Source: Marchantia polymorpha subsp. ruderalis (Eukaryota > Streptophyta > Marchantiopsida > Marchantiales > Marchantiaceae). From it: DNA of 64,000 nucleotides. Positions 3,466-52,234 of the stretch are shown here, in pieces (position 1 is the stretch's first letter; the number at the start of each line of letters is the position of its first letter). The stretch lies in the NCBI GenBank assembly GCA_037833965.1, contig AP031353.1, forward strand, positions 1,862,501 to 1,926,500. The letters run 5' to 3'. A model generated the notes under the pieces. The model ran no database searches. It was not told the DNA's origin and was given only the letters and a program-made list of their open reading frames with translations. The translations under genes were made by a program, and so were the position numbers.

Positions 3466-6400
3466 TTATTTCCGGGCATCTGCTTTCTTGGCCTCTTTAG
3501 CTGTGGATTCAAAACGAAGACAGAGAAGTAAACGGTCAGAGTCTATTTAAAGACTATTTAATGAAGCGCTATTTTATCACTTAGCTCATTACTCATTAGC
3601 CAGATGTATGAGGGAGGGTCAGGACATGAGAGGTTGAATGCGAAGAGAAAGATGCTCTTTGTTTGAACAGGATGCTGAAGAACCACTCCCAGCGACTGCT
3701 ACTGTCCCTATTACTCCATGGCATTGAGGGATAAATGATTTGAATCGAAAGTCGCGTCTCGAACATGACATGCGTGACAAATCTACACTGGTTAACTTAT
3801 GCGCTGCTAAACGAAAGATTCATGTTACCCGATACAGTTCGTTAACGGCAGCCATTTTTGAAAGTTACCTCACTGCTATTTGAGGTTCATTCACAAGCAT
3901 TTCCCTGACTGACAAAATGACGATTATCGAGAGCTCGGTTACCTGCTTTCTCCTCTTCGCGCTTTTTAGCAGCTTCCAGTCGTTGTTGCCTAATAAGGGC
4001 AAGGCGTTCTGCACCAGGAATGAATTATCTAAATCAGAAACTTGGAAATAAAAAACGGAAAAGAATGTGGAGAAGATGATCGAGGAATAGCATCTTCACG
4101 AATTTCACAAGCTCTGCTGAATATCTACATGATTGGTCATTGATTTGAGAGACGGTAAGTAACGATTCAGATACATATTTTGCATGTCCCTATTCATCGA
4201 TAGTCTTCATCGAGAATAGAAACTACATTGTTGACCTGTAATGCCACAATCTCCACTTTGTCATACCTCGGCTTCTTTTCGTGCTTCGTAACCAAGCCTA
4301 CATGTTCTCCACTCCCTATTGCATATATCCCATATCGATTGAACTCACCTAAATCCTTCTTAGATTGCTCGGTTTTGCCCTGTTCCTGGAGCTTCAAATA
4401 ACGCTCATGAGCGCGTTGTTTTTCCAGCTCCTCTCTACAATATTACAGACGTCAGATGCCCATCGTTGTTAGATCCTCATCCATCGCAGCTTCTCGAGTG
4501 TAAAACGAGAAAAACTAGCTCACTTCAATCGCTACTGTTGTGTTGTAATGATTCCCTCCAAGAGAAACCCAAGCATCACTAAAAGATTTCAACAAAATCT
4601 GTACTGACCTCTCTCGTCTCGAAAGCTCCGCTGGTCTGTCAAGCTGCCACAACCACATAATCAAAGAGAAGAAAGAGTTTAGCATCTTCATGACCCAAAT
4701 CAACGAACCCCAACGAGTACAAATGCAACTGAACCAGAAGAGAAAACAAAAAGCATGCAGAAATCCTTGGCAGAAAAAAAGAACTGAGGTTCGAGGCTTT
4801 ACTAAGAAAAGACAGTCAATCAATCTATCGTGCTCTCCAACCGTATCCTAGAGAGTAGAACCTGGATCGGATAGGTTTGTACAACGACAGGAGTATTTGT
4901 AAAGAACACACGACAGTTTTCACTACACGAACAACTTACATCCACATCTTTAGCCTTGATGTTCTTCGCTTTCACTAAGTTAGGATTCTCAATCTCAATG
5001 ACACCTTGTGCTCCCTTCTTCTTCTGCAAAATGCCGCAATGAACGAAACCTTCAGAAAGAGTACACAAATCTAATACTTCAGCTCGATAAAGCCACGTCT
5101 ACCTACATGTGAAGGCAATATCATACGAGGCAGTGCAGGTTAGGCAAGTTTTACCGCACTCTCGTCCTCAGACGACTCCTCCTCCTCTTCTGATTCTTCC
5201 TCTTCTTCTTCCTCTTCCTTGGCGTCCTGTATTGGCAGAAGTACAACGAAGTGTAAATTGACATCACTTTTCCTCCAGCAAGTACGGAGAATCAGATAAG
5301 AAAACACAGTCCAACGTCATCTGATCATCAAGTCTAAAACTTGAACTCCAATGGGTGTGGAATACCAAAAGATGAAATGAAGGAAAAAGAGAGCATTGTA
5401 TTTGATTTAGGTGACAATCGACATGAAAGTGTGAACTATTAACAGGAGAAAGCAGACGGTGTGAAAGTAAAAGTTTGAACTAGGCGTAAAAGACTTACTC
5501 TTTTGAAACTCCGAGGTTTTCCAGACGTCCCGGCAGCTGTGGAAAAAAAACACTGACATCAGTTCTCGCATCCATTTACTGAGTCAAAAACTTTACGAGG
5601 CTGAAAAGAAAGCGTTCTTCCCAAAGAAGTTGGAGAAGCTGAAAGGAAAGGCCCGCGCTGTGGAAAGAAGGGTATATTATGAACGTTCCACACTTCTTGA
5701 GTGTCGTATGACGAGACTCAAGAAGTGTGGAACGTTGAAACAGTAATTCCACGTTTGGGGTTAAAAAAAGATGTCAAAATGACGATTCGTGAGCCTGACA
5801 ATTGGAGACAATCTTATCCCAGTTATGGAGAAACAACAGTTGAGACGATGAATTACATGCGACCGTATAATAAAAAGAGCTATGCTTTTGAAGTCAAAGT
5901 AGCAAGTTACGGGGCGTTCAATAACTGATGAGGCCAGTGGTAAAAGAGAAACTACTTCTACATCGTATGATCCAACCGTGATGATCACTAGGTACATTCA
6001 TTTCACACACAGTTCAACACTGACCCAACGTGAACGCACGCTATCAATGAACAGCCCATGCGTACAGTCAGATGCTTCAGAGGTACTGACAAGTATGCGA
6101 CCTCCAGAGAGGCTTGGCTCAGGAATGTCCCAAAAAAGGGACAGCCAGGCTAATGAACCCACCAAAATAGTAGGCATTAGACAGTTCAGCTATGAGATCA
6201 CAATAGGCAGAAGAAATAAAACACTGATCACACATTAACAATACCGCTAGTAAGCACGAAAAAATACCTGAGACGTAGAACACTGTAAAGGTTTGTGGCA
6301 GCGTCAAAGATGCAGCATAGGCGAGATGTGGAAACCAAGTACAAGGAACTACGAACTGTAAACAACCGTACCGTACATCCTGAATTACAACCGCTCACAA

Positions 6401-14600: not shown

Positions 14601-16700
14601 TCGAGTGCTCACAAACGAGCCATTGATCAGTTCTGCGTCAAGTGGAAAGCTTCACCTCGATTTCAACGTGGTAAACAGCGATGGTGGCGTGAACAGTGGC
14701 AAACCTTTTCCAACTTACAAGCATCGAAACTCAAAAGTTGCGCTACCACTTGATCAGACCACCAACGGCACAACTTTTCGTATTGAGCACCTAATTTAGT
14801 GAGGTACAGTAGATTGGCCCTCACAGCAAAATGAAGTCCCATAGACTTTTATCACAAATTGCTCACAATACTTGGTTATCTTCTACTGTGTAGATAGATT
14901 CGACCCTAGTGGCTTCCTTTCGTGGCTCGAAAATCTGTCATAGTTAACAGTCTGTATCTATTCTAAAAGTTTGAACATCTGAATAATTGACGGATCCCCC
15001 TGATACGTTGATAATACGTTAACCCCTAAACACTTTATAGAGGACCAGTCGATGAACTTTTGTCTAGACATGGAACAAAATCGCATACAGGTGTTAACAT
15101 AGAAACAATGCGAGCTTGGTCAAGGCGATCTGCCAGAGAAGAATATATGTTTGGACTGGTTCCTCAGTCAACATACTGCTGCGAAAAGTGACGAAGGAAA
15201 GTAAGTAGTACGCATTCATCCCATTTGTATGCTTTCCGAGCATTTCCCTCATTTGACAGTGAATAATTTCAAACAGAAAGCTGGATCTGCAAAGCACAAG
15301 AGTTCGCTGCTCACGTACTGCTGTCTTCTCGGAGACACCAACTTCCGCGGGCCTGGATCTGATTAATTGTCTGCATCCTGCATACGGTAATGAAATGTAA
15401 CACGACGAGCAGAAGTTATTCAAGCAAACAGAGGCAACAAGTAGTAACTACGAAACAACGCCGGTTGAAGATCCAAAGGGTGGAAATTTCAAGCCAAAAG
15501 CTCCATGGTCAAGCCGAACACGGATAAATCAAACGTCCAGTCTCAAGTACTAAATCTTAGTCGGTATATATATGTGACCATCGATTAGGTGTAAACGCTT
15601 GGTGAGTGGAACTTGTAGCCACTTTTCAGGTGCCAACGTAGTGAATACCAACAGCCTCATGAGGTCGATCCGGGGGACAAATTCATAGATGGATCACATT
15701 AGAACTTTGCGAGGCTGCAAACCCCATAAACTGAGTATGTTATTTCGGTAAATATGTCATTGAGCAGATCACAAGAACCAAATGGCTATGAGTGGTGAAA
15801 ACGAGGGGATGATGAGCACAATGGAGATCAGATACTTGCTCCGAGAATTACCCGCAATGATACTCACACGTGTGCTCGACTGAGATTTCAACTTCTGGAA
15901 GTCAACTCTGATCGATGTGATTTTCCACAACTAAATGATATCAGATAAATGTGCTAGCTTGGGCTGGGGCGGTCATGAACTTGCTCTGATCCAAATCCTC
16001 ATACGTTTGATTTGCACGAGATCCCGGCTACATAAAATTATGGTCTTCCTCGAGGGCTCGAAGGTGAAATCCTGTCACAAATCTAAGCGTGAAGCAGTTT
16101 AGGTGATCTTACTCTTCGTAGGTTTAGCATCGAGAAACCTCAAAATATCCATGGGATGACCAGTCAGACTTTGGGAGAGCAAACAGTGTCATCGATCGGT
16201 GCCTTTTTTCGGCCTGAACCCAAACCGATTCCACTTTCGACTTCGAGTTGATGCGTTGAAGCATGCAGTTTCTCTTTCACCTTTGCATCTGTGTACTCAC
16301 TGCAGCCCTCGAGATTAGCGTAGACTTCAGCAGGTCACCTCACAATAACACGATGATAGCTCTGTGCACAAGCAATAGCTGAGACTTGGGTGGGATCACT
16401 CGGTCATGTTTAAATCAGAAGACTCCTCGCCAGCGTCGACTTTGAAGCTCTCCTCAGACATTCATTAAGCGACACGTGCACGTACTCTAGCTTTTTGCCT
16501 CCACAGCATTGATTAGATTGTAACTTGTGTCCGTGGACATAAAGAAGACAGGTAAGTAAGTTACTCTCACCTGATAATATGTACTGAGAGTCTCGAGCAG
16601 CAGCGAGCAAGAAGCTCCATATTCCACATCCCCATGACGATCATGATACGACAGTATCCGCAATCCGGACTCCAGAGAGTTGACTTTGAAACCTCATCAT
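11640..16700. other. Intergenic region, no gene recognised
   Basis: Composition is mixed and all open frames are short and unfamiliar. One minus-strand frame around 14212-14290 would encode a hydrophobic tail with WFVLIIVAG, ending in a stop. It has no convincing acceptor and an in-frame stop just upstream, so it is not annotated as a gene. The sequence approaching 16.7 kb probably belongs to the transcribed flank of the hairpin cluster. Confidence 0.4.
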
Positions 16701-16702
16701 TG

Positions 16703-16828
16703 TTCAAACTGAGCCTGGATTGACCCTAGCGGCATGAGCTTTATGTTTCATGCTGACAGATTGCCCCCGATCAAGAGACCATGACATACAGCACATGCCG
16801 ACTATGGCCTGTCCCGGACCAGTTTGAA
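16703..16828 (+). ncRNA. MicroRNA-like hairpin, cluster member 1
   Basis: The arms TTCAAACT (16703-16710) and AGTTTGAA (16821-16828) close a stem that continues inward. The 5' segment CCTAGCGGCATGAGCT (16725-16740) pairs with AGCACATGCCGACTATGG (16790-16807) with a few bulges. The terminal loop is about 50 nt. Outer stem and arm pairing extend over nearly 40 nt, as expected for a plant MIRNA foldback. Its arms are related to the four other hairpins downstream. The strand is given as plus because all five share one orientation; transcription from the minus strand would also fold. Confidence 0.72.
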
Positions 16829-17165
16829 GCTACAGATTTTGGGACCAGAAAAGTCTGAGTCAGGTCGCTCAGATCCATACTGTCGATGTGAACGAAGCTA
16901 GTGCCTCGTTCGGTTTAAGGCAACTGGGCTGCGCTTGCGAAACTCCCAGGCTTCCACAAGGACGTCCCGCCTTTTCAGTTCCAAGTATCGTCCCTCGGGT
17001 GCACCTTATCTTTCCATAAGTCTGGGATCTCAGACTAGTCTAATGCAACCGGAGCTAAAATGGATAGCCATCAATCAGGCATTAGAATAGTCGGAGGTCT
17101 CAGAGCTCAGTAGCCAGCTAGCTCAGCCTTCTCCACGCTCTCGAATAACCTGAATAATGGAAACA

Positions 17166-17184
17166 CTTCTCTCTCTCTCTCTCT
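17166..17184. repeat. (CT)n microsatellite
   Basis: An uninterrupted run of alternating C and T between the first two cluster hairpins. CT runs are common in plant 5' leaders and near promoters. Confidence 0.85.
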
Positions 17185-17298
17185 TGCCAGACGATTGAAA
17201 GTTCATTTTTGGGCGAGCACAATTACCGAGAGCAGGTACAGAAGGCATACTTGAGCAACTGGTGGTGATGCCGATCATCGTCGTTGACACTGTGTCTC

Positions 17299-17393
17299 GG
17301 TCGAGCATCCTAGCGGCATGAGGGGCGTCTCTACTACCAAATTGAGAGTGAACTTGCAGTGGACCTGCTGCACATGCCTGCCATGGCCCACCC
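17299..17393 (+). ncRNA. MicroRNA-like hairpin, cluster member 2 (diverged)
   Basis: The 5' arm CCTAGCGGCATGAGG (17309-17323) is nearly identical to the matching part of member 1. The 3' arm GCACATGCCTGCCATGGCC (17370-17388) has the family CACATGCC core. Pairing has more bulges than in the other members and the outer stem is weak, so this copy may be decayed. Confidence 0.5.
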
Positions 17394-18013
17394 TGCACCT
17401 ATCCCACCCATCTGACACATCGAGAGTATAGTTAACGATGAGCGCTGCCGGTGGAAGCGGCGAGCTCTCCTCCCTCGTATCTTGAATACCAGCACACCAG
17501 AAAATTGCAAGGCAAGTGCAAAGTACACCATTACACAGTCCTACTCGTGGCATTATGGCATCACGTGTACATTACAGCAACAATCTTCAGTCAGATTGCA
17601 TCTGTAAATTTTCATGTTGGACGAAATTATTGGCACATGAAAAGTATTTTGCATATTTCCTGGACTTCTTTTTGTATGATTTGCGAGGGAGTATGGCACC
17701 ACGAGAATGCATGTCGTTAATGTCGCTCGCCACCGCAGACGAAGGAAGATCCTCCATAGCTGGCACTGATTACAAATCTCATTTCTTCTCCTTCTCCTTC
17801 TCCTTCTTCTTCCTCCTCCTCCTCCTCCTCTTCAATTGATCGATTGGTACTAGATCTGAGTTTGTAAAGTCCACCAGTCGAACGTGACGATCACGAGTCG
17901 CATGCAGTTTCAGATCTCAAGCAGAAGAAGCGGCTTACCTTCAGAGATTTCCATGTCGAGCTAGGCAGACGTACACATTCGTGACAGCAATTTGACGATC
18001 TGCGATCGAGAGC

Positions 18014-18130
18014 GCGCCGAGGCTGGCCCAAGTTGGCATGAGCAATATCATGATCCATGAATCGTGTAGGCCGTAAGCACAGCGGACCAAGAAATCAAAT
18101 GCACATGCCAACTGGAGTCCGCCTTGGCGC
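18014..18130 (+). ncRNA. MicroRNA-like hairpin, cluster member 3
   Basis: The base stem GCGCCGAGGC (18014-18023) pairs with GCCTTGGCGC (18121-18130). The 5' arm 18021-18046, with core CAAGTTGGCATGAGCA, pairs with the 3' arm TGCACATGCCAACTG (18100-18114) and flanks, with a few mismatches. The 26 nt at 18021-18046 are identical to 21139-21164 in member 5, while the loops differ. Selective preservation of the arms over the loop is the hallmark of a processed microRNA duplex. Confidence 0.75.
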
Positions 18131-19307
18131 ATTCTTGAAACCCCGGCCCGCCCCTTGAAGACGTGACCTGCTGCTGCCGCTTCTGCTTCTTCGGATGAGG
18201 CTCTGACCTCGTCCCGTTCCTGCGACCACAACGATTGATTTTCCTCGTTCTGTTTTCTCGAGAGCCAGACAATTGGCAAGCTGAAGGAGTCAGCCCTGCC
18301 CTGCCCTGCCCTGCCGCCAGAAGCAACAGATCGAATCCATACCGACCTGGAAGTTGAAACAGACCTAAAGAAATTTCAGTTCCAGCAAAGTACCCAAATT
18401 TTGGTGTCCGCAATTCACGATCAAGTCGTCGCAAAGTCAAAGTGACCTCATCCTGTTTCGCAGCTTGATATATCCGATCCGGCACCTGAAGCGTAGAGAT
18501 GAGCTAGCTAAAGCTAGTGATGCCGACGTTGATCATTGACCTACAGAATCTGGTAGCTCGGCCGTGGACCTGACTGACGGTGCAGTACATGATCTTCTGT
18601 GCTACTCGAGTGCTGCCTCATGTCTCCAGTAGAGTAGTCGAGGCCAGTCAACGCCTCGTACGTCCCCATCGTCGCACGAGCCAAACCAGGTCAACGCCCA
18701 CACACCACCGGGAGTCCTTCGACTCTTTGTAATCTGACTCGTGCTGATCTCACGTCATCACAGAAGCGCACCTCATCATCCCGTCGAGGTCAGTGACACG
18801 AGAGCAACCATGCTCGGTGGAAAGTTTCGATGCGGTGGTGGTTTGAGTCTCAGAGTTTCTTCGAAGGGCTTGATCTGTGGGCAGATGAACGAACTTAGCG
18901 ATGCTGATTACTATCGAGCCTTTCAATTTCTCGAAGATTTTTATCTTTTGTGCAACTTGCTGGACGGGCAGCCAGATTTCTCCCCCAAGCTCGCCTCGCA
19001 CGGATCGATAGTACCTCCGCCCACTGGCTCAACCTCTACTGGTTCCTGCACCTGGACAAGAAGATGCTTCAAGAGGGAAACAAAATTAGACGACAAATCG
19101 ATCCTACTTGTAAGATTTACTTAACGTAATGCACGATCAGCGATTCTCGATCTGATGAGATGAGATAAAATGAGAAGAGATGTTCTGTAGTGGTCCAGTG
19201 CGCTGAGTCAGAGTTCTGGCATCCATCCATGCAAACGCTGGTGCAGGGGGGCATCTTGACTCGCGAGCTCCAGCAAGGTCTTGATTCTTCTCGTCTTGTC
19301 CTTTCTT

Positions 19308-19423
19308 TTGCAAGTGCGCCCGGATTGCCCATAGGTGGCATGAACGGATGCTCAGAGTTCACGTTCACCGAGTGTCTGAAGAGCTGTACATGCCCACTAT
19401 GGTCCAACCGGGCACACTTGCAA
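19308..19423 (+). ncRNA. MicroRNA-like hairpin, cluster member 4
   Basis: TTGCAAGTG (19308-19316) pairs with CACTTGCAA (19415-19423). The stem runs almost unbroken through GCCCGGATTGCCCATAG and GTGGCATGAAC (to about 19345), against GTACATGCCCACTATGG (19386-19402) and CCAACCGGGC. About 36 nt of near-continuous pairing with a loop of roughly 40 nt. The arm cores (GGCATGA, CATGCCCACTATGG) resemble members 1 and 5. Confidence 0.78.
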
Positions 19424-19572
19424 GTAATGCTTGTGCCCTGCGAGCAGAATCAATTGCCAGTTCGAATTTCGATGGCCTCGAATATCCATCGAAAGCTCAG
19501 CTTCGAAGGTCGCCTCCTCTAGCTGGACCCCTGTGAACATCAAGACATCGGAGAAGGTATCGGTCATCTTGT

Positions 19573-19611
19573 GCACGGCATCTTAGCCCACGGTGGGCTA
19601 AGATGCCGTGC
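19573..19611. ncRNA. Perfect 19-bp inverted repeat with one-base centre
   Basis: GCACGGCATCTTAGCCCAC (19573-19591) is followed after one G by its exact reverse complement (19593-19611). It lies 150 bp after cluster member 4 but has no arm similarity to that family. It may be a cruciform or small-RNA hairpin, a termination structure, or a recent inverted duplication. Confidence 0.55.
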
Positions 19612-21132
19612 TTCAATCGATCGGGTTGCTGTAACTACTGTAATCGGCAGTGTTGCTATTTGGAACCTCCGTTCTCGACGACATTTGCTGGGCTGTCAGT
19701 GGCCGAGTGACCTACCAGCGGAGGTACTCGATTGCTCGTCGCTCCTTGCTAATCAAATTCTTTCCGTGCAACTACACGATGGACGTGACCTGCGAGGCAA
19801 ATGGCATACGTAAACATTACTTCGTCTTTTTCCGCCGTACTTGCGCATACTTCTCTCGGACATATTTTTCTCCGATCTCGTTCCACCGTACGCGTCGTGC
19901 ATAAATGCACGTGTCGTGATGATGATAAAATCCGGGCTCCCATTCACCCATCTCTTGGCCTCTGCTGGCCCCTTTTATTGCACATGTCGGAGTGCCACCC
20001 GTGCGCACCGTGAAGTCAGGATCCAAGCCTCGAATCATTGCCACAGTAGCCAACATGGTCGTTCATTCAGCAATGAAGTAAACCAGCTGCTTTCAAGTGC
20101 ACACTACCGACCGACAAACTGACGCCCTGAAAGCTTCTGTGAGCTTTTCAATTCCAACTCTAGGGTCTGAGATCCGAACACTATCACGATGGATTCAAAA
20201 TTGAAAAGTGAGGTTCATGTATCATTGAACATCAAACTTGCCTGAGTGCCAAACAAAAAGTCAGATCAATTCAGGTCAGAGCTGGTCAGATGAAGGTCAC
20301 AGTGTTCCTCGATTCTTGGGACTGATTCCTCTAAGCTCAGCATACGTCAGAAACAGATGTTTGCTTACAAAACAAGTGCAAGCAAGCAAGAAAGTCAGTA
20401 ATCTAAGATGGTTAACCTGCTCTAGATGAACCTGCCTGTGCCAAAATTTGGCCAAAATTTAAACCATCAAAAAGCTTACGGGTTCGTACCGGGGTCGATA
20501 TGATCTGACATTCCTAGACCTGGTCAAGCTGTCCACGAATTACAAACGGCATCCGTAGACTGTCATGATTTTTCCATGATTACTTCAGAGATGAAGGACG
20601 ATGGTAAAGACCAACTTGTGAAGAGTTGTAGTACATTAGTAGTACACCACGACGTCAGTATGACATGGATACTGAAGGCGTCAAATTGGGATATCAATTC
20701 CGCAACGAGTCCTACACCTTTCGTTGGCGTGAAGGTGGTGGTAAGCATCCTTCTACTCTTCTGTAGACTTCAATGTGATGATCAGAATACGCACCTTGCG
20801 AGTTTAACCTTATGAACTGAAATAGTATCCGCATGCCAATGTCATGGATATGATATTGCGCATGTGCTCGATATCTTCAAGGTACACACGAATTGTAATT
20901 TGTTCCTAGTCGACTCTGTCAGCCCTCTATCCGTGCGGACCTCCTCCTTGCATCCCGGATTGTAGCAAATGCTGAATATTGGCATGAGAAAAAATCGAAG
21001 CTCTCATCCAGTCCGACAAATGATCTCAAGCAGAGCCCGGCAGCTCTCGACGCGATGTTATTCCATCGTCATGAGTACAGAGCTCTGAGAACGAGATATT
21101 TTGTATTCGAACGGACGTGTCGTTCAAGAACG

Positions 21133-21230
21133 TGCTACGGCTGGCCCAAGTTGGCATGAGCAATTTCGAGCTCATTCATGAACAGAATGTGACATTGTGT
21201 TGCACATGCCAACTGAGGTCCGCCGTAGCA
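21133..21230 (+). ncRNA. MicroRNA-like hairpin, cluster member 5
   Basis: TGCTACGGC (21133-21141) pairs with GCCGTAGCA (21222-21230). The 5' arm 21139-21164 pairs with TTGCACATGCCAACTGAG (21200-21217) and the following bases. About 31 nt of stem with four or five mismatches, and a loop of about 35 nt. The 5' arm is identical to member 3 over 26 nt. A plausible mature strand is the 21-mer at 21200-21220, which starts with T and is opposite a well-paired 5' arm. Confidence 0.78.
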
Positions 21231-21239
21231 AATTGTTGA

Positions 21240-22800
21240 GATAAAAGGTCCAGAACTCCCGTAGATGCTCGCTGTAAGAATATACGATCGCTCGCCTCGC
21301 CTTCCATCTGATTCATGAAATGCAAGTGTTTCAATAAAACAACGTTGTGCACTTGGTTCTCACAAGAGCGAGTAGACCAGGCAGAATAGGCACGAGCAGC
21401 CTTCAACAACGAGGAGAACTACATTCCACTCTTCAGAAAGTGCAGTTCATGCAAGAAGCGCCTTTCCTTGACGCACTTATGGGGTCTATGCATACATTAC
21501 GAGTACAGAAGCTCGTCGGGTAAATGCAGCTGACATGTGACAAAATTCTCAGTCCAGCTGGGAATCTATGGAAATGGCCCTTTGGCCGCTTACCAGCGTG
21601 ATGCAGCAGCCGACACCAAGCAATGAGTCCACTCGTCAGATTATAAAGCTGAAAAGAACTTACAGCGATAGAGAAGGGGGGAAGCATTTCCTCGTACACT
21701 CCTCAGTGACAGAGAAGGGCTCGAAAGACCAGCCATCTTGCAGACTGAGTATGAATGCGAAGCTGCGTAATGTGATGCAAGAAGAGCAGTAATTATACTG
21801 GAGGCACACGAGGAGCAGCAGAGTTCTGAGAAGGCGTCCAGAGTATGACGTAGTATGATGAATTCACATCACTGCCACTTGTGCTCATTTCAAACCTCGT
21901 AACCTCTCCAGGAAATTCACTCATTCGTTCAAACGCTGAATCCGAAACTTGAGGTCGGTTGAGCTTTGAAGAAGTCAGCGTTCCTGCTCAAAGGTTTCAG
22001 TTAGGAATGTTTCATCAAGTCAACTTTGATCACTCTCTTAGTCAAAGACTGAAGGTGTCCACCATTGGTCCATTGTCAGAAGATAATGGGTGGGCGACCG
22101 AAGGGTTGACTAAGGTAATAGGACGCTACGAGGAACAAGTAAAGGCCATCAAAACTATCTGCCGTAGCGTGGATACGACTGGATCTCCAACTAATGGCCA
22201 CACCGGAACACCATCGTCGAAAGCCAAAAAATCAGGAAATAGTGGAAAGCTAATAATGACGAACGTGGACTTTGCTGCAGCTACGATCCCATCCTCTTCT
22301 CGCTTATGTAAGCTCGGAGAGTCTGCCCGTGGGGATCGGGCCTCACGCACGCAGTGCTCAATTTCCACTGATCCTCGTGTTAAGCTGGATTTGACGCCGT
22401 ACTTGGCCGAAGAATGCATGAGCTGCTGCACAATTCCCGATCAGTCCAAGCTCCATCATTCTCGCATAGGGAGCGCTTTGTCACAAAGCTTTGTCTCAAG
22501 TGCGCCGCACAGCGATATTGATTGTTGAGGCTGGCTAGCAATTGTCGTAGAACCCGAGTGCGGTGCAGTGCAATGCCAGTCTCCTAAGCCAAGACAAAGA
22601 GGAAAATGTGAAACAACTGTACGAACACCTCTGGCTGGACTCGTGCTCAGAGCCTTCGTATATTCGACATTCGACCTACTCGTATGTCACGTGCCACGGA
22701 TTATCACCAGTACGATCGCACACATGTGTAGCAGCCCGTGTCCAGACGGTGAGCTCTGAAAACCGTGCGTAGCATTGGCTCCCTTCTATCTTCTCCCTTC
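21240..22800. other. Flank of the hairpin cluster with an unassigned 189-aa open frame
   Basis: A plus-strand frame at 21959-22528 is 189 codons long, serine-rich and not recognised. It begins MSFEEVSVPAQRFQLGMF and ends APHSDIDC. No splice partners or domains were seen. It may be a chance frame in a long non-coding transcript carrying the hairpins, or a small lineage-specific gene. Confidence 0.3.
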
Positions 22801-32578: not shown

Positions 32579-33785
32579 CTAACGCTTGGAGAATTGAGGT
32601 GCCTTACGGGCCTTCTTCAATCCGTATTTCTTCCTCTCCACCACTCTCGAGTCTCGGGTGAGCAGACCTTGCTTCTTCAGGGGTTCCCTGTTAGCTTGGT
32701 TGGCAACAATCAGAGCACGGGCAATTCCTAGCAGGATAGCTTGTGCTTGGGCGGAGAGACCACCACCCTCGGCCCTGACAATGGTGTCGTACTTTTGCTC
32801 GTACCCGAGACTGGCAAGGGGATACTTCACGGCTTGCAGCCACAAGGGATTTCCTTGTAGGTAGTCCTGCAGGTCATGACCAAATATGATTGAATGCATT
32901 AGTTCAATTGCCGCACAAGGGGTGCGTGGACATCCCATTTCAAGTCACGGTTCATGGAGCAATCACGGACAAAGAATTCTTAATATGGTGACGTTTCCCC
33001 ATCCATTTGTTCAATTTCGACGTGCCTTCCTATATGAAACCGTATAAATGTTAAGTAGGTGTAAGTAGTAGGTCACGCACAGAGGTTTTAAACTGGCAGC
33101 CCTATTAGTGGCAATGGAGTGGCAACGGAGTGGCAGAGGACGGGAGAGAACAATAGAAAATACAAGAAAGAGAATGCACCGAAGAAAACTGAGACGCATT
33201 TTGTAAACATTCAACTACGATAAATGATTCCGCAGGAACCAGCGTTTGAAAATTACAGCTCGCGAATGGACCACCAAAGACTGAAAATGGTGAATTGAGG
33301 GCGGGCAGGAAAATTTTCACGAAGCGACAACCCTTTAGACTATCGAAAATAAATTTGAAAGAATGAAAATGAAAAGCGTAGAAGAGAGTACATACTTGTG
33401 CAGTGCGGTTGTTGATGATAATCTGACCGGTTCCATCGACAAGCACCACACGGGCCACGGCAGTCTTCCTCCTGCCGGTACCCCACAACCTGGCGGCAGC
33501 AAATCCTCCGGGCAAAACGCTCTTCACGTAAGCCTCCAAATCAACCTCGTTGTCCTCAGACACAGCCGCTCCCACGGCGCACACCTTCACGGCGGCAGAA
33601 GCAGAAGAAGAAGAACTGGCCTTCAGAGAGGCAATTCTCAATGCAGGCCTCAAACTGACTCCATTTTGAACCGAGAATCGAGAACCCAGGGAAGCAGCGG
33701 TGGCCTTGTCGGAGCAGCTGCAGCTGCTCGCAATCCCGAGCTGCAGCGATCCCAGCGACGACGTGAGTGCTGCCATCGTCGCCAT
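32579..33785 (-). CDS. RPS9: Plastid 30S ribosomal protein S9 (uS9c), nuclear-encoded
   Basis: Two exons on the minus strand: 33785-33396 (130 codons, donor GTATGT) and 32866-32579 (acceptor GCAG, stop TAG), giving 225 aa. Residues 1 to about 60 are Ser/Ala-rich with few acidic residues, as in a chloroplast transit peptide. The uS9 domain follows, with [12 protein letters not shown], the family hallmark. Exon 2 covers [36 protein letters not shown] and the terminal [27 protein letters not shown]. The basic tail matches uS9, which in bacteria reaches the decoding site of the small subunit. The product should act in the chloroplast stroma as part of the 30S subunit. Length is near that of other plant homologues. 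A 529-bp intron interrupts the domain. Confidence 0.97.
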
Positions 33786-34010
33786 AGCTCGTGAGTTCCG
33801 AACTGTCTCTCTGCTCCCTATCTTCCGAAGCCCGAGCTAAAGTTGCGGACTGTCTGCACCGGAACGTCGCAAGGTACCCCTCGCCTCAGCCTCGATACTC
33901 TGGGCCCCCAGCAGAAGTGTTCGCCTGATCGACTCGGGTGATTACGTGGCAGTGTGCCACGTTGGCCTCGAATAGCGCGCTATTGGATAGGCCAGCGCCT
34001 AATCCTTACA
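33786..34010 (-). promoter_or_regulatory. Promoter of RPS9 with G-box palindrome, site II and CCAAT motifs
   Basis: On the upstream side of the start codon are TGGGCC (33901-33906, site II type), an inverted repeat ACGTGGCA-GTG-TGCCACGT (33944-33962) and ATTGG (33982-33986, CCAAT on the minus strand). ACGTGGC is a G-box/ABRE core bound by bZIP and bHLH factors. Site II motifs are common in plant ribosomal protein promoters. Light-linked control of a plastid protein would be expected but is inferred only. Confidence 0.5.
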
Positions 34011-49192: not shown

Positions 49193-52100
49193 ATGGCTCA
49201 ATCGGCCAGCTCCTGCGCTTCTTCTCACTCTCGACCTTCGTTCTCTGCTTCGTCGTCGGACAGCAACCCTGCCTCTCCCCGGACCCCGTCAATTTGTAAA
49301 GAGGGACGACTGGATTCTGCGGTTGAGGAGTGTTGTTGCGCGACATCGCCTCCGCTCTCGCCGTTCGCCGCACCGGTGGAGAAGGAGCGATCGTCGCGAG
49401 AACATGACGCGGCCTTGTCGCTCATCGAGAGGTTGGACGATGGCTGGTTTTGGGATAATGTGGTGAGCTGCCGCTGGGGCCAAGCCGCCTCGTCCCTGCC
49501 CGCCATCGCCGAAGGTTCCGGTTCAGCAGCAGCAGCAGCAGCTAGAGATAGATTGGCGGGAGACTCCGCATCCGCGCATGGAATTCGACCCCCTGATGCG
49601 GCGGGACACAGCGCCAGCCAGCGGGATGTCCTCAAGGCTCCCTTCCGGAGCATCGAGATGGTGCAGCCTTTCGTCACGTCGCGGAGCTTTTCCGGTGCCA
49701 GGGATGCGCGAGATCATCAAGGTCTTCCTAGGTCCAGATTGAGGCCGCTCACTCGGCGGACCGGAAGTATGGACGAAAAGCAATGGAAAGACATTAGCTT
49801 CAGCGACAGCGAGCAGAAGCATTTCACCCGGGCGCCGCAAGATTACTCTATCCCCCTTGTCGGAGATAAGCGAATTGAGGTGAGTTCTCTCCTTCTCGTT
49901 CACACCTCACGTTGCACCTCGATGCACACGAATTGGTCTCCCAGATCTCGCTGCAATTGTCGAGTTGCGCATCCCGCATCCCGGAACTAGTCTTCCTTCC
50001 TGCACCATTGAACTCCGTGATTATGAGCTTCACGAATCCTGCCGCTGGGCCTCGCTGACTGATTTTGATGTCGTCTTGGCGTGCAGCCCTCCAATTTGGG
50101 CCTGGGCCAGGTGAGGAGAAGGAGGAACACGATGTTGGACGTTGTTGTACCGTCCAGACGCTTTTCTGATGGCGACGAGACCGCAGACGAAGTGAGCGCA
50201 CCTCTGGCAAACGTCCGCGAGGAAGGCGAGAGCGCTCCTGAGGACAAGTCCTCAAACAAGGTGAGCGCCGGAGAAGTGTGAGCTTATGTCTCTCTCTGTG
50301 TCTCTGTGTGTGATTATGGCTTCTCCGAAATCTAGCGAGCTCTGGTTAGCGGGACGGCAGCACCTCGTAGCCATGGGAAGAGTGCGCAAGCTTGGACTGA
50401 AGCTGGTTTCGAAGGCTCTTAGGGACTCGAGGGTGGGGCGAAGTTGACGAGCGCAGGCAGTGACAGACATCGAAGCGCACAGGGCCCATCGAGAACCAGT
50501 GTGGTCGATTAAGAGTAATCCGACAGAATGTCTGAGCATTCAATTGAGGCAGTTTGTTCGTCGGCTCTCCTTTTTCCTACGTTCGTTTCGGTGTGACAAG
50601 GTTCCTTCGTTTCCCGGAGGCTGGGGTAGCATGGGCTTCGAACTCGAGCTCAAATACGGCGTAGAGGCAACATAACCGAGAAAATTATGAGCGGTGCTTT
50701 GCCAAGATATCTGGCCGTCAAATTGACAACTCGAGCAGAAATGCTGGAGAAGGACCAAGGTATTACCTTGGCCCTTCTCGAGTTCGAAGCCTGACGGCCA
50801 GATGTCACAACAGCGCTCATCGTTCGCCCGGTCATGTACCTCTACGCCGTGCGTGTGTTTACATCAACGAGGCTTTCGGCTAGTATACGCGCTTCTCTCG
50901 TATATTCGATGTGTGCTGAGAAATTGCTCTGGTTTGTTCTGAAATCGGCTTGCCCAAGGTGCTCGGAATGCTTCTCTACATCTCCTAGCGACATGTGATG
51001 ACTGGACCACTGTAGGCCTGTCTGGAGTGCTGACTACCACTCAGTTGTGGAGTCGCGCAAGTGTTTTTCCTCTCTTGCTTTTCCACCACATCGGATTCAC
51101 TCTTGCGGGAGATAGATTGACAGTCTCGTACTGTTATCATTTGAAAGTACCACTTGAAAGGCTTCAGCTATTGATACGGTCCCAGAGATTTGAGCTCGGA
51201 AAGTACTGTGACAACTACGGGATCCTCGAGGGACTGACTGTACGTATCTCGTGGCTCCGCTTCGGGCCATGAGGTACACGTCTCGAAACCAGGTCCCGAT
51301 ACTGACGGTCCTGGAAAGCTCTCCCGGGGCAGGCGTGTACTGCAAGGCTCTCGTACGAGCAAAAGACGATGCATTTTTTGTCGTACACTCTCGCCGAGAA
51401 TCGTTCCAAATGCACGTGGATTGATTCGGGATCTACTTATTCAGATTTTTAGGACCCAACCCGCGTCGAATTACGCAGGTGGTGAGAAGGACGCCACATA
51501 TAACGTGTCCTGATTACATCACGGTTGTGTTCTTGCATATTCTTCATCGTTGTCGTTATCACTCTGTCCCGGTGGAATATGCATTTTTCTCAGAGCTCGT
51601 CTAGTGTCAAGCTCTGCGCTTCAATTGCATTCTCCTTTTCGCGACATTGTGCGTCTGTTGATTACTACATGATCTTAGTCCTTCTGCCGGAGAGGCTTCT
51701 GCATTTACATGATGAGTTGATGAATCGATTGAGTCGTATAAAGAGCTAACCAAAGTCCGTTGAATTGTTCAGAACCAGGTTCCACCAAAGCTGGTGCTGC
51801 CAGGCAAGTTGGGAGGCATCATAACAGGCAGAGATTTGCGGAATGATCAGACAGATAGCAATACGAAGTGGACGCCCCCTCAGAGGCGTGGAGGCAAAAG
51901 GGGAAGAAGAAAAAGTTCAAAAAGTTTAACAGAGATCGAGTATGATGAAATGCGGGGCTGCATGGACCTTGGTTTCAGTATCAACAAAGACGACCTCACT
52001 CCCCGGGTTGTCAATGTGTTTCCTGGCGTGAAGGATGCCTACAAGGGCGGAGATGATCCATTTTTAAATTCTCCTCGAGATAGAGCCAATTCTCCAAAGG

Positions 52101-52234
52101 GCTGGCACCGACGGCCAGAGTCGCCTCTGCTCAAGTGGCAGTTGCCTACACCGAATGGCAACAAAGTGGATATGAAAGCTCAACTGAAGTTCTGGGCCCA
52201 TGCCGTTGCATCTACAGTGGCTGCGGAGTGCTGA
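49193..52234 (+). CDS. DUF1685 family protein
   Basis: Three exons: 49193-49879, 50087-50260 and 51773-52234. All introns are phase 0 with GTGAG donors and CAG acceptors, giving 440 aa. The N-terminal 229 residues are Ser/Ala-rich and largely disordered, with a six-alanine run. Exon 3 holds a basic stretch RRGGKRGRRKSS (possible nuclear signal) and the family core LTEIEYDEMRGCMDLGF (about residues 330-346). The typical end is PNGNKVDMKAQLKFWAHAVASTV. DUF1685 proteins are plant proteins of unknown function with this split signature: an acidic LT-x-x-E-x-x-E-L-x-G-C-x-x-L-G-F block and a K-x-x-L-x-x-W-A-x-A-V-A tail. The ATG is the first after a stop-containing leader and gives the longest consistent frame. 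Intron 2 (50261-51772) is unusually long and holds two hairpins. Confidence 0.85.
50656..50850 (+). ncRNA. Long microRNA-like hairpin in intron 2 of the DUF1685 gene
   Basis: ACGGCGTAGAGG (50656-50667) pairs exactly with CCTCTACGCCGT (50839-50850). Further in, ATGAGCG pairs with CGCTCAT, ATCTGGCCGTCA (50708-50719) with TGACGGCCAGAT (50791-50802), and near the loop GAGAAGG/CCAAGG with CCTTGG/CCTTCTC. The 195-nt foldback with a 12-bp perfect inner duplex flanked by paired segments fits a plant MIRNA precursor. The ATCTGGCCGTCA duplex is the best candidate for the mature pair. The strand is that of the host gene. Confidence 0.72.
51165..51345 (+). ncRNA. Second, weaker foldback in the same intron
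   Basis: TCTCGTGGC (51247-51255) pairs with GCCATGAGG (51266-51274). GTAC and GGGATCC/AGGTCCC segments pair farther out, and GAGCT pairs with AGCTC at the base. There are many bulges. It could be a decayed or imperfect microRNA precursor or a chance structure. Confidence 0.35.

Follow-up and report, generated by a model that had tools for sequence, protein, structure and literature searches.

In this study, we analyzed a window of 64,000 nucleotides (nt) from the liverwort Marchantia polymorpha subsp. ruderalis (assembly GCA_037833965.1, contig AP031353.1, positions 1,862,501 to 1,926,500 of the forward strand), in which five related hairpins, named h1 to h5, form a tandem cluster at 16700..21240. 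The plus strand is tentatively preferred for the cluster. The initial annotation had placed five foldbacks of the same orientation at 16.7–21.2 kb, their 5' arms sharing GGCATGA and their 3' arms CATGCC. The foldbacks were confirmed at these places on the plus strand, and GGCATGA together with (A)CATGCC was present in five of five hairpins. Hairpin h1 (16703..16828, plus strand, as are all five) carries the predicted 5p strand at 16719-16739 and the predicted 3p strand at 16793-16813. In h2 (17299..17393), a weak or decayed copy with conserved cores, the 5p-like and 3p-like strands lie at 17303-17323 and 17372-17392, respectively. The predicted 5p and 3p strands are at 18023-18043 and 18103-18123 in h3 (18006..18138), at 19325-19345 and 19388-19408 in h4 (19308..19423), and at 21141-21161 and 21204-21224 in h5 (21124..21239), of which h3 is the sister copy. 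We believe it very likely that this is a tandem cluster of a liverwort microRNA (miRNA) gene, or MIRNA, family, consisting of the sound copies h1, h3, h4 and h5 and the decayed copy h2.

Folding and conservation of the hairpins

Plant MIRNA genes are annotated by a stable hairpin of less than 300 nt, by a miRNA/miRNA* duplex with no more than about five mismatched positions, and by precise reads of 20–22 nt that come from both arms in replicate libraries. Each hairpin was folded alone and compared with 200 dinucleotide shuffles. The folding z scores of h1, h3, h4 and h5 were -6.85, -6.42, -6.91 and -7.98, respectively, and 0 of 200 shuffles was as good in each case. The unpaired bases among the first 19 nt of each predicted 21-nt strand (5p and 3p) were 4 and 5 in h1, 3 and 3 in h3, 4 and 5 in h4, and 4 and 4 in h5. 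These four hairpins agree with annotated MIRNA genes in the first two respects (z below -6, 3–5 unpaired bases per strand), and h2 agrees in neither. The plus strand of the window was also scanned in 3194 segments of 126 nt with folding energies corrected for G+C content. Among separate places, h5 ranked first, h4 third and h1 17th; h2 and h3 were outside the top 20, h3 being longer than 126 nt, so that a segment cuts it. Ranks 2 and 4-16 were strong foldbacks outside the hairpin family.

The motif GGCATGA alone is unremarkable in the window (12 seen, 9.0 expected), and the unusual part is its paired arrangement. The A-A mismatch directly 3' of GGCATG is kept in all five hairpins, and the 49-nt arms of h4 are complementary at 78%. 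The closest pair is h3 and h5, with identical 5p strands, 3p strands alike at 19/21 positions and flanks that are no longer alike (0.48-0.56). The 3p copies of the cluster agree with each other at 13-19/21 positions. The initial annotation had also claimed that the loops and the outside DNA had diverged and that the paired arms had been kept, and this was borne out by the mean pairwise identities, which were 0.72 and 0.73 in the 5p and 3p duplex strands (shuffled letters 0.46-0.47) against 0.50 in the loops (shuffled 0.47) and 0.50-0.52 in the 100-nt flanks (shuffled 0.49), both near random. Such arms, conserved relative to the loops across copies, are a supporting feature of MIRNA genes.

In the lower stems, sequence conservation was weak (0.50-0.54, shuffled 0.42-0.45), and the pairing was nonetheless kept. 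Changes on both sides were found in 17 of 36 consensus stem pairs, 11 of these 17 in the lower helix; the shuffled mean was 7.3, and 0 of 500 shuffles was as high. The structure was derived from the same alignment, which biases the count of paired cells upward. When the partner was slid by 1-3 columns, the pairing fell from 85% to 29–42%. Conserved arms with covarying stems have the look of paralogous MIRNA genes, and chance foldbacks would hardly produce them.

With a model made from the five hairpins, the window yielded no sixth copy, the four matches on the minus strand being four of the hairpins read backwards. Across the genome (241 Mb, 9 contigs), the two-arm pattern AGN{1,2}GGCATGAN{35,65}ACATGCC occurred at eight places, namely the five hairpins and three others, and the reversed control occurred once. 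The three extra places were not family-like on the matched strand, with z scores of -0.03, -1.64 and 0.92 and with 92, 13 and 164 of 200 shuffles as good, respectively. The pattern requires the invariant cores, and diverged copies could escape it. A DNA search of the genome with h1 returned only h1 itself. The duplicated MIRNA family proposed in the initial annotation is thus supported by conserved arms, near-random loops and flanks, covariation and a genome pattern that turned up no sixth copy, and is not supported by h2, which does not have the structure.

The initial annotation had further stated that the cluster contains no protein gene, and this holds for the frames tested. Among the 27 open frames of at least 85 amino acids at 14.5-23.5 kb, ten had no Pfam match at an E value of 0.01, and one more, which spans h3, had none at 0.001. 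Elsewhere in the window, a minus-strand open frame at 33105-33836 has the start of a Ribosomal_S9 domain and probably encodes a plastid S9 protein, and a plus-strand frame at 51764-52234 has DUF1685; these were the two with Pfam matches among 8 frames tested. A strong lone hairpin with long paired arms lies at 50706-50806 (50675-50810 folds at -60.2 kcal/mol, z -7.8), possibly a separate MIRNA-like locus.

Probable relatives in Pellia and candidate targets

In the whole window, none of 4227 Rfam families matched at the gathering score. At an E value of 10, nine matches were obtained over 16500-21600, all below the gathering threshold. Those on the hairpins were limited to mir-3145 on h5 (18.8 bits against a threshold of 98), apart from an overlap of NPPA-AS1_3 with the six initial bases of h4. 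The matches of mir-6644 (19565-19622) and of small nucleolar RNAs were dismissed as far below their gathering scores.

One study has shown that pen-miR8167 and pen-miR8175 are sequenced 21-nt small RNAs of the liverwort Pellia endiviifolia (Alaba et al. 2014, PMC4368373). We scored the 42 P. endiviifolia miRNAs in the table of that paper against profiles of both plus-strand arms. The two ranked first and second of 42, respectively, on the 3p profile and in one register. Over all registers and both plus-strand arms, shuffles of their own sequences were as good at rates of 5e-5 and 2.4e-4, respectively (200,000 shuffles each); smaller runs gave 1 and 5 of 20,000, and 2 and 0 of 2000. The mature likeness was above chance in one register. 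Both RNAs are 21 nt long and have CATGCC at positions 2-7, as in the cluster; they differ in the first base, which is C in Pellia and A in the 3p strands of the cluster, and they are identical to the best copies at 14-15/21 positions, the comparison being one of mature sequences. On the 5p arm, pen-miR8179 reached 8e-4 in the register predicted by a 2-nt overhang and 0.025 over all registers. Its reverse complement matches pen-miR8167 at 14/19 positions (6e-4), which would fit the partner strand from a third copy in Pellia. These likenesses suggest that the family is probably an old one among liverworts and has relatives in Pellia.

The initial annotation had taken the family to be possibly lineage-specific. 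This claim is refined: no Rfam family reached its threshold, and the two Pellia RNAs were the only relatives found. In a literature search with the mature sequences, the Pellia paper (PMC4368373) was the only relevant one among the matches listed, and an unrelated mouse paper also matched. The available parts of PMC10721683 and PMC10841014 have no mention of clustered miRNA genes, and the entries listed by further literature searches contained nothing on this cluster. According to the available part of a 2022 review (PMC9291395), Marchantia-like and Pellia liverworts are about 350 million years apart.

We looked for target sites in the genome with single arms, namely the 3p strands of h5 (in a register two bases earlier than the others, which also picks up h3), h1 and h4 and the 5p strand shared by h3 and h5; the 3p strand of h2 and the 5p strands of h1, h2 and h4 were left out. 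At no more than 3 mismatches, the sites beyond the cluster numbered 1, 2, 1 and 1, respectively, and the reversed-pattern controls gave 2, 0, 2 and 0. A degenerate 3p pattern with one mismatch occurred at 8 places beyond the cluster, where our own count predicted about 10, and its control occurred at 1; of the 8 places, C3:27103077, C2:24877900 and C6:15870384 were looked at. The best of the sites looked at, C3:27103077 (score 3.5 with h1), lies in a damaged retrotransposon-like repeat copy, with a gag-type zinc knuckle by our reading for which Pfam gave no such match. Among 29 other copies of this repeat, 15 were readable at the site and all scored 17 or worse, the other 14 being unreadable there; we therefore took the site as chance. 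At C4:12000758 (about 3.5 with the h5 5p strand by our count), there was no recognizable gene and no second arm. C2:24877900 lies in A+T-rich DNA with no long frame across the site.

Counter-evidence and alternative explanations

Several results weigh against a MIRNA family with Pellia relatives as we read it. The folding expected for each of the five loci was found in h1, h3, h4 and h5 (z from -6.4 to -8.0) and not in h2, where the z score was +0.96, 165 of 200 shuffles were as good, and 8 (5p) and 7 (3p) of the first 19 bases were unpaired; because of these two results, h2 is called weak or decayed and is best read as a decayed copy. The best matches of the cluster arms to pen-miR8167 and pen-miR8175 reach only 15/21, and one match of 15/21 (to pen-miR8175) also occurs in the window outside the hairpins, at 18459. 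The case for Pellia relatives therefore rests on profile, rank and register. Being related, the two RNAs count as a single piece of evidence, and pen-miR8179 was only fifth of 42 on the plus-strand arms, below pen-miR408-5p and tied with pen-miR8180. The antisense foldbacks are about equally stable, with energies (antisense against plus) of -56.3 and -51.8 for h1, -36.7 and -31.4 for h2, -60.3 and -67.2 for h3, -60.9 and -61.4 for h4, and -54.7 and -58.3 for h5. A match of 15/21 to each of pen-miR8167 and pen-miR8175 is likewise seen in the antisense of the h4 5p arm, and the score of pen-miR8179 is 8.7 on the antisense 5p profile against 6.1 on the plus strand. Finally, the target-site counts are near the controls or our expectation, and no site looked at lies in a convincing gene, so that no target beyond chance was found.

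The alternative that survives best is that the hairpins are real MIRNA genes and that the likeness to pen-miR8167 and pen-miR8175 arose by chance, the family being limited to Marchantia or its near kin. The identity of 14-15/21 with the best copies would fit such an origin, as would the joint shuffling of all 42 Pellia miRNAs, in which the top score was attained by the best of them in 82 of 20,000 sets with the plus-strand arms and in 164 of 20,000 once the antisense arms were added. In the same two tests, two of the 42 reached the second score in only 2 and 7 of 20,000 sets, respectively. The published comparison of Marchantia and Pellia, in the available part of the review (PMC9291395), gives three liverwort-specific miRNAs common to both and omits pen-miR8167 and pen-miR8175; the numbers 8167 and 8175 occur there once each, apparently within reference identifiers. 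Against chance, the two RNAs take ranks 1 and 2 of 42 in one register, and the copies of the cluster differ among themselves almost as much as they differ from Pellia (13-19/21). Nor was any nearer kin of the Pellia RNAs recognized in this genome, where 12 places were found at no more than 3 mismatches (reversed control 4) and three of the 12 were folded, none of them family-like. We regard a chance likeness as rather unlikely.

It is less probable still that the hairpins act from the opposite strand, with the roles of miRNA and star swapped and the 21-mers being the reverse complements. The similar stability of the antisense foldbacks, the 15/21 match of the antisense h4 5p arm and the higher antisense score of pen-miR8179 would speak for it. 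Against it, the profile scores of pen-miR8167 and pen-miR8175 were 14.5 and 12.9 on the plus-strand 3p arm and 11.0 and 11.0 on the minus-strand 3p arm. Because both Pellia RNAs score higher on the former, we preferred the plus strand.

The remains of transposons commonly contain foldbacks and tandem duplications. The hairpins could accordingly be tandem foldbacks left by an inactivated transposon or by duplicated DNA and give small interfering RNAs instead of miRNAs, a reading that we consider very improbable. It is favored by two snap-back repeats in the same window. One, between h4 and h5 at 19573-19611, is a perfect 19-base-pair inverted repeat with a 1-nt spacer (19555-19630 folds with z -7.0); it stands outside the hairpin family and is perhaps a young snap-back hairpin. 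The other, at 5682-5736, encloses a short inner hairpin between arms of 21 paired bases each (5675-5810, z -8.15). This reading is opposed by arms that were kept while the loops diverged and by the compensatory changes in the stems. The h1 DNA search and the genome pattern found no other family-like copies, which argues against a dispersed transposon.

An identity with miR2118/482 was first suggested by the CATGCC core. By our frame reading of the five 3p strands and the two Pellia RNAs, one frame of the 3p reverse complement translates to x-I/V/A-G-M; miRNA position 8, which takes all four bases, falls at a third codon position, and positions 2-7 correspond to GGCATG, codons of the P-loop. 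Of 66 NB-ARC matches in the genome, 50 were tested, the other 16 starting beyond the P-loop in the profile. No P-loop of the motif used is present in eleven of these 50 (L014-L024), and many others are near-identical copies. Many NB-ARC genes (L014-L043) stand in two dense clusters, at 9.65-9.84 Mb of contig C4 and 30.48-30.89 Mb of contig C5; in the C4 group (L014-L023), the open frames are 1022-1118 amino acids long and lack the P-loop motif used. A penalty of about 4 or less is usual for plant miRNA targets. For the 39 P-loops in the 50 matches, the best penalty of a miRNA from the window was 8.5 (L083), the next was 10.0 (L035; 8.5 with pen-miR8167), and the remaining 37 were at least 12; in 24 distinct NB-ARC loci scanned in full, the best was 6.0, equal to codon-shuffled controls. 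An NLR-regulating family like miR482/2118 that is directed at the NB-ARC P-loop is thus extremely unlikely, P-loop targeting was rejected for this genome, and the miR2118/482 identity was dropped with it, there being no Rfam match above threshold.

Proposed biogenesis, known systems and meaning for liverworts

We infer that the cluster produces miRNAs. The hairpins would be transcribed, and DCL1, working upward from the base of each stem, would release a 21-nt duplex that contains the conserved A-A mismatch and has 2-nt 3' overhangs. In this duplex, the 3p strand would start at ACAUGCC, or else one or two bases before it, and the 5p strand would end at GGCAUGANN. By analogy with plant MIRNA genes, mRNA silencing would proceed through AGO1 cleavage. 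Since the Pellia relatives of the 3p strand are sequenced 21-nt small RNAs, we take this strand as the probable main product.

The miR482/2118 superfamily of seed plants has tandem clusters of paralogous hairpins and targets the P-loops of NLR genes. The present cluster resembles it in its tandem paralogous hairpins and in a variable position like a third codon base, but the P-loop register of that superfamily is another, and no P-loop target was found in this genome. For miR408, the 3p sequence UGCAC...UGCC...UGGC can be aligned to the h2 3p strand if gaps are allowed, and pen-miR408-5p was third of 42 against the profiles; in contrast, an insertion lands in the seed, and no miR408 family was among the Rfam matches even at an E value of 10. 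In the liverwort itself, the available part of Honkanen et al. (2018, PMC6141232) describes mpo-MIR11861/MpFRH1 as a MIRNA gene with an intron-less 1.2-kb transcript and the target MpRSL1. We found its 21-mer at one place in this genome at no more than 2 mismatches, as an exact match in the 3' arm of a long hairpin (the stretch folds at -67.2 kcal/mol), which identifies the genome as that of a liverwort. As is proposed for the copies of the cluster, MpFRH1 is a liverwort MIRNA hairpin with a 21-mer in its 3' arm; unlike them, it is, as far as that part of the source goes, a single-hairpin gene whose target is known, and its sequence is unrelated to the cluster.

We tentatively suggest, as something short of probable, that the cluster belongs to an unrecognized miRNA family shared by Marchantia-like and Pellia liverworts, in which four sound tandem copies have a fixed seed and are diversifying at position 8 and in the 3' half, so that the cluster would cover related targets in the manner of miR482/2118 but in another gene family. 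Parts of the cluster may already be annotated in Marchantia under miRBase numbers, and if the locus has separate names there, the gain would lie in uniting these names as a single family that has a relative in Pellia. If the suggestion is true, the family would be a fourth miRNA common to Marchantia and Pellia, and a multicopy one, so that the miRNA set shared by liverworts would be larger than listed, and the cluster would exemplify, outside the seed plants, the tandem amplification of MIRNA genes whose arms are conserved.

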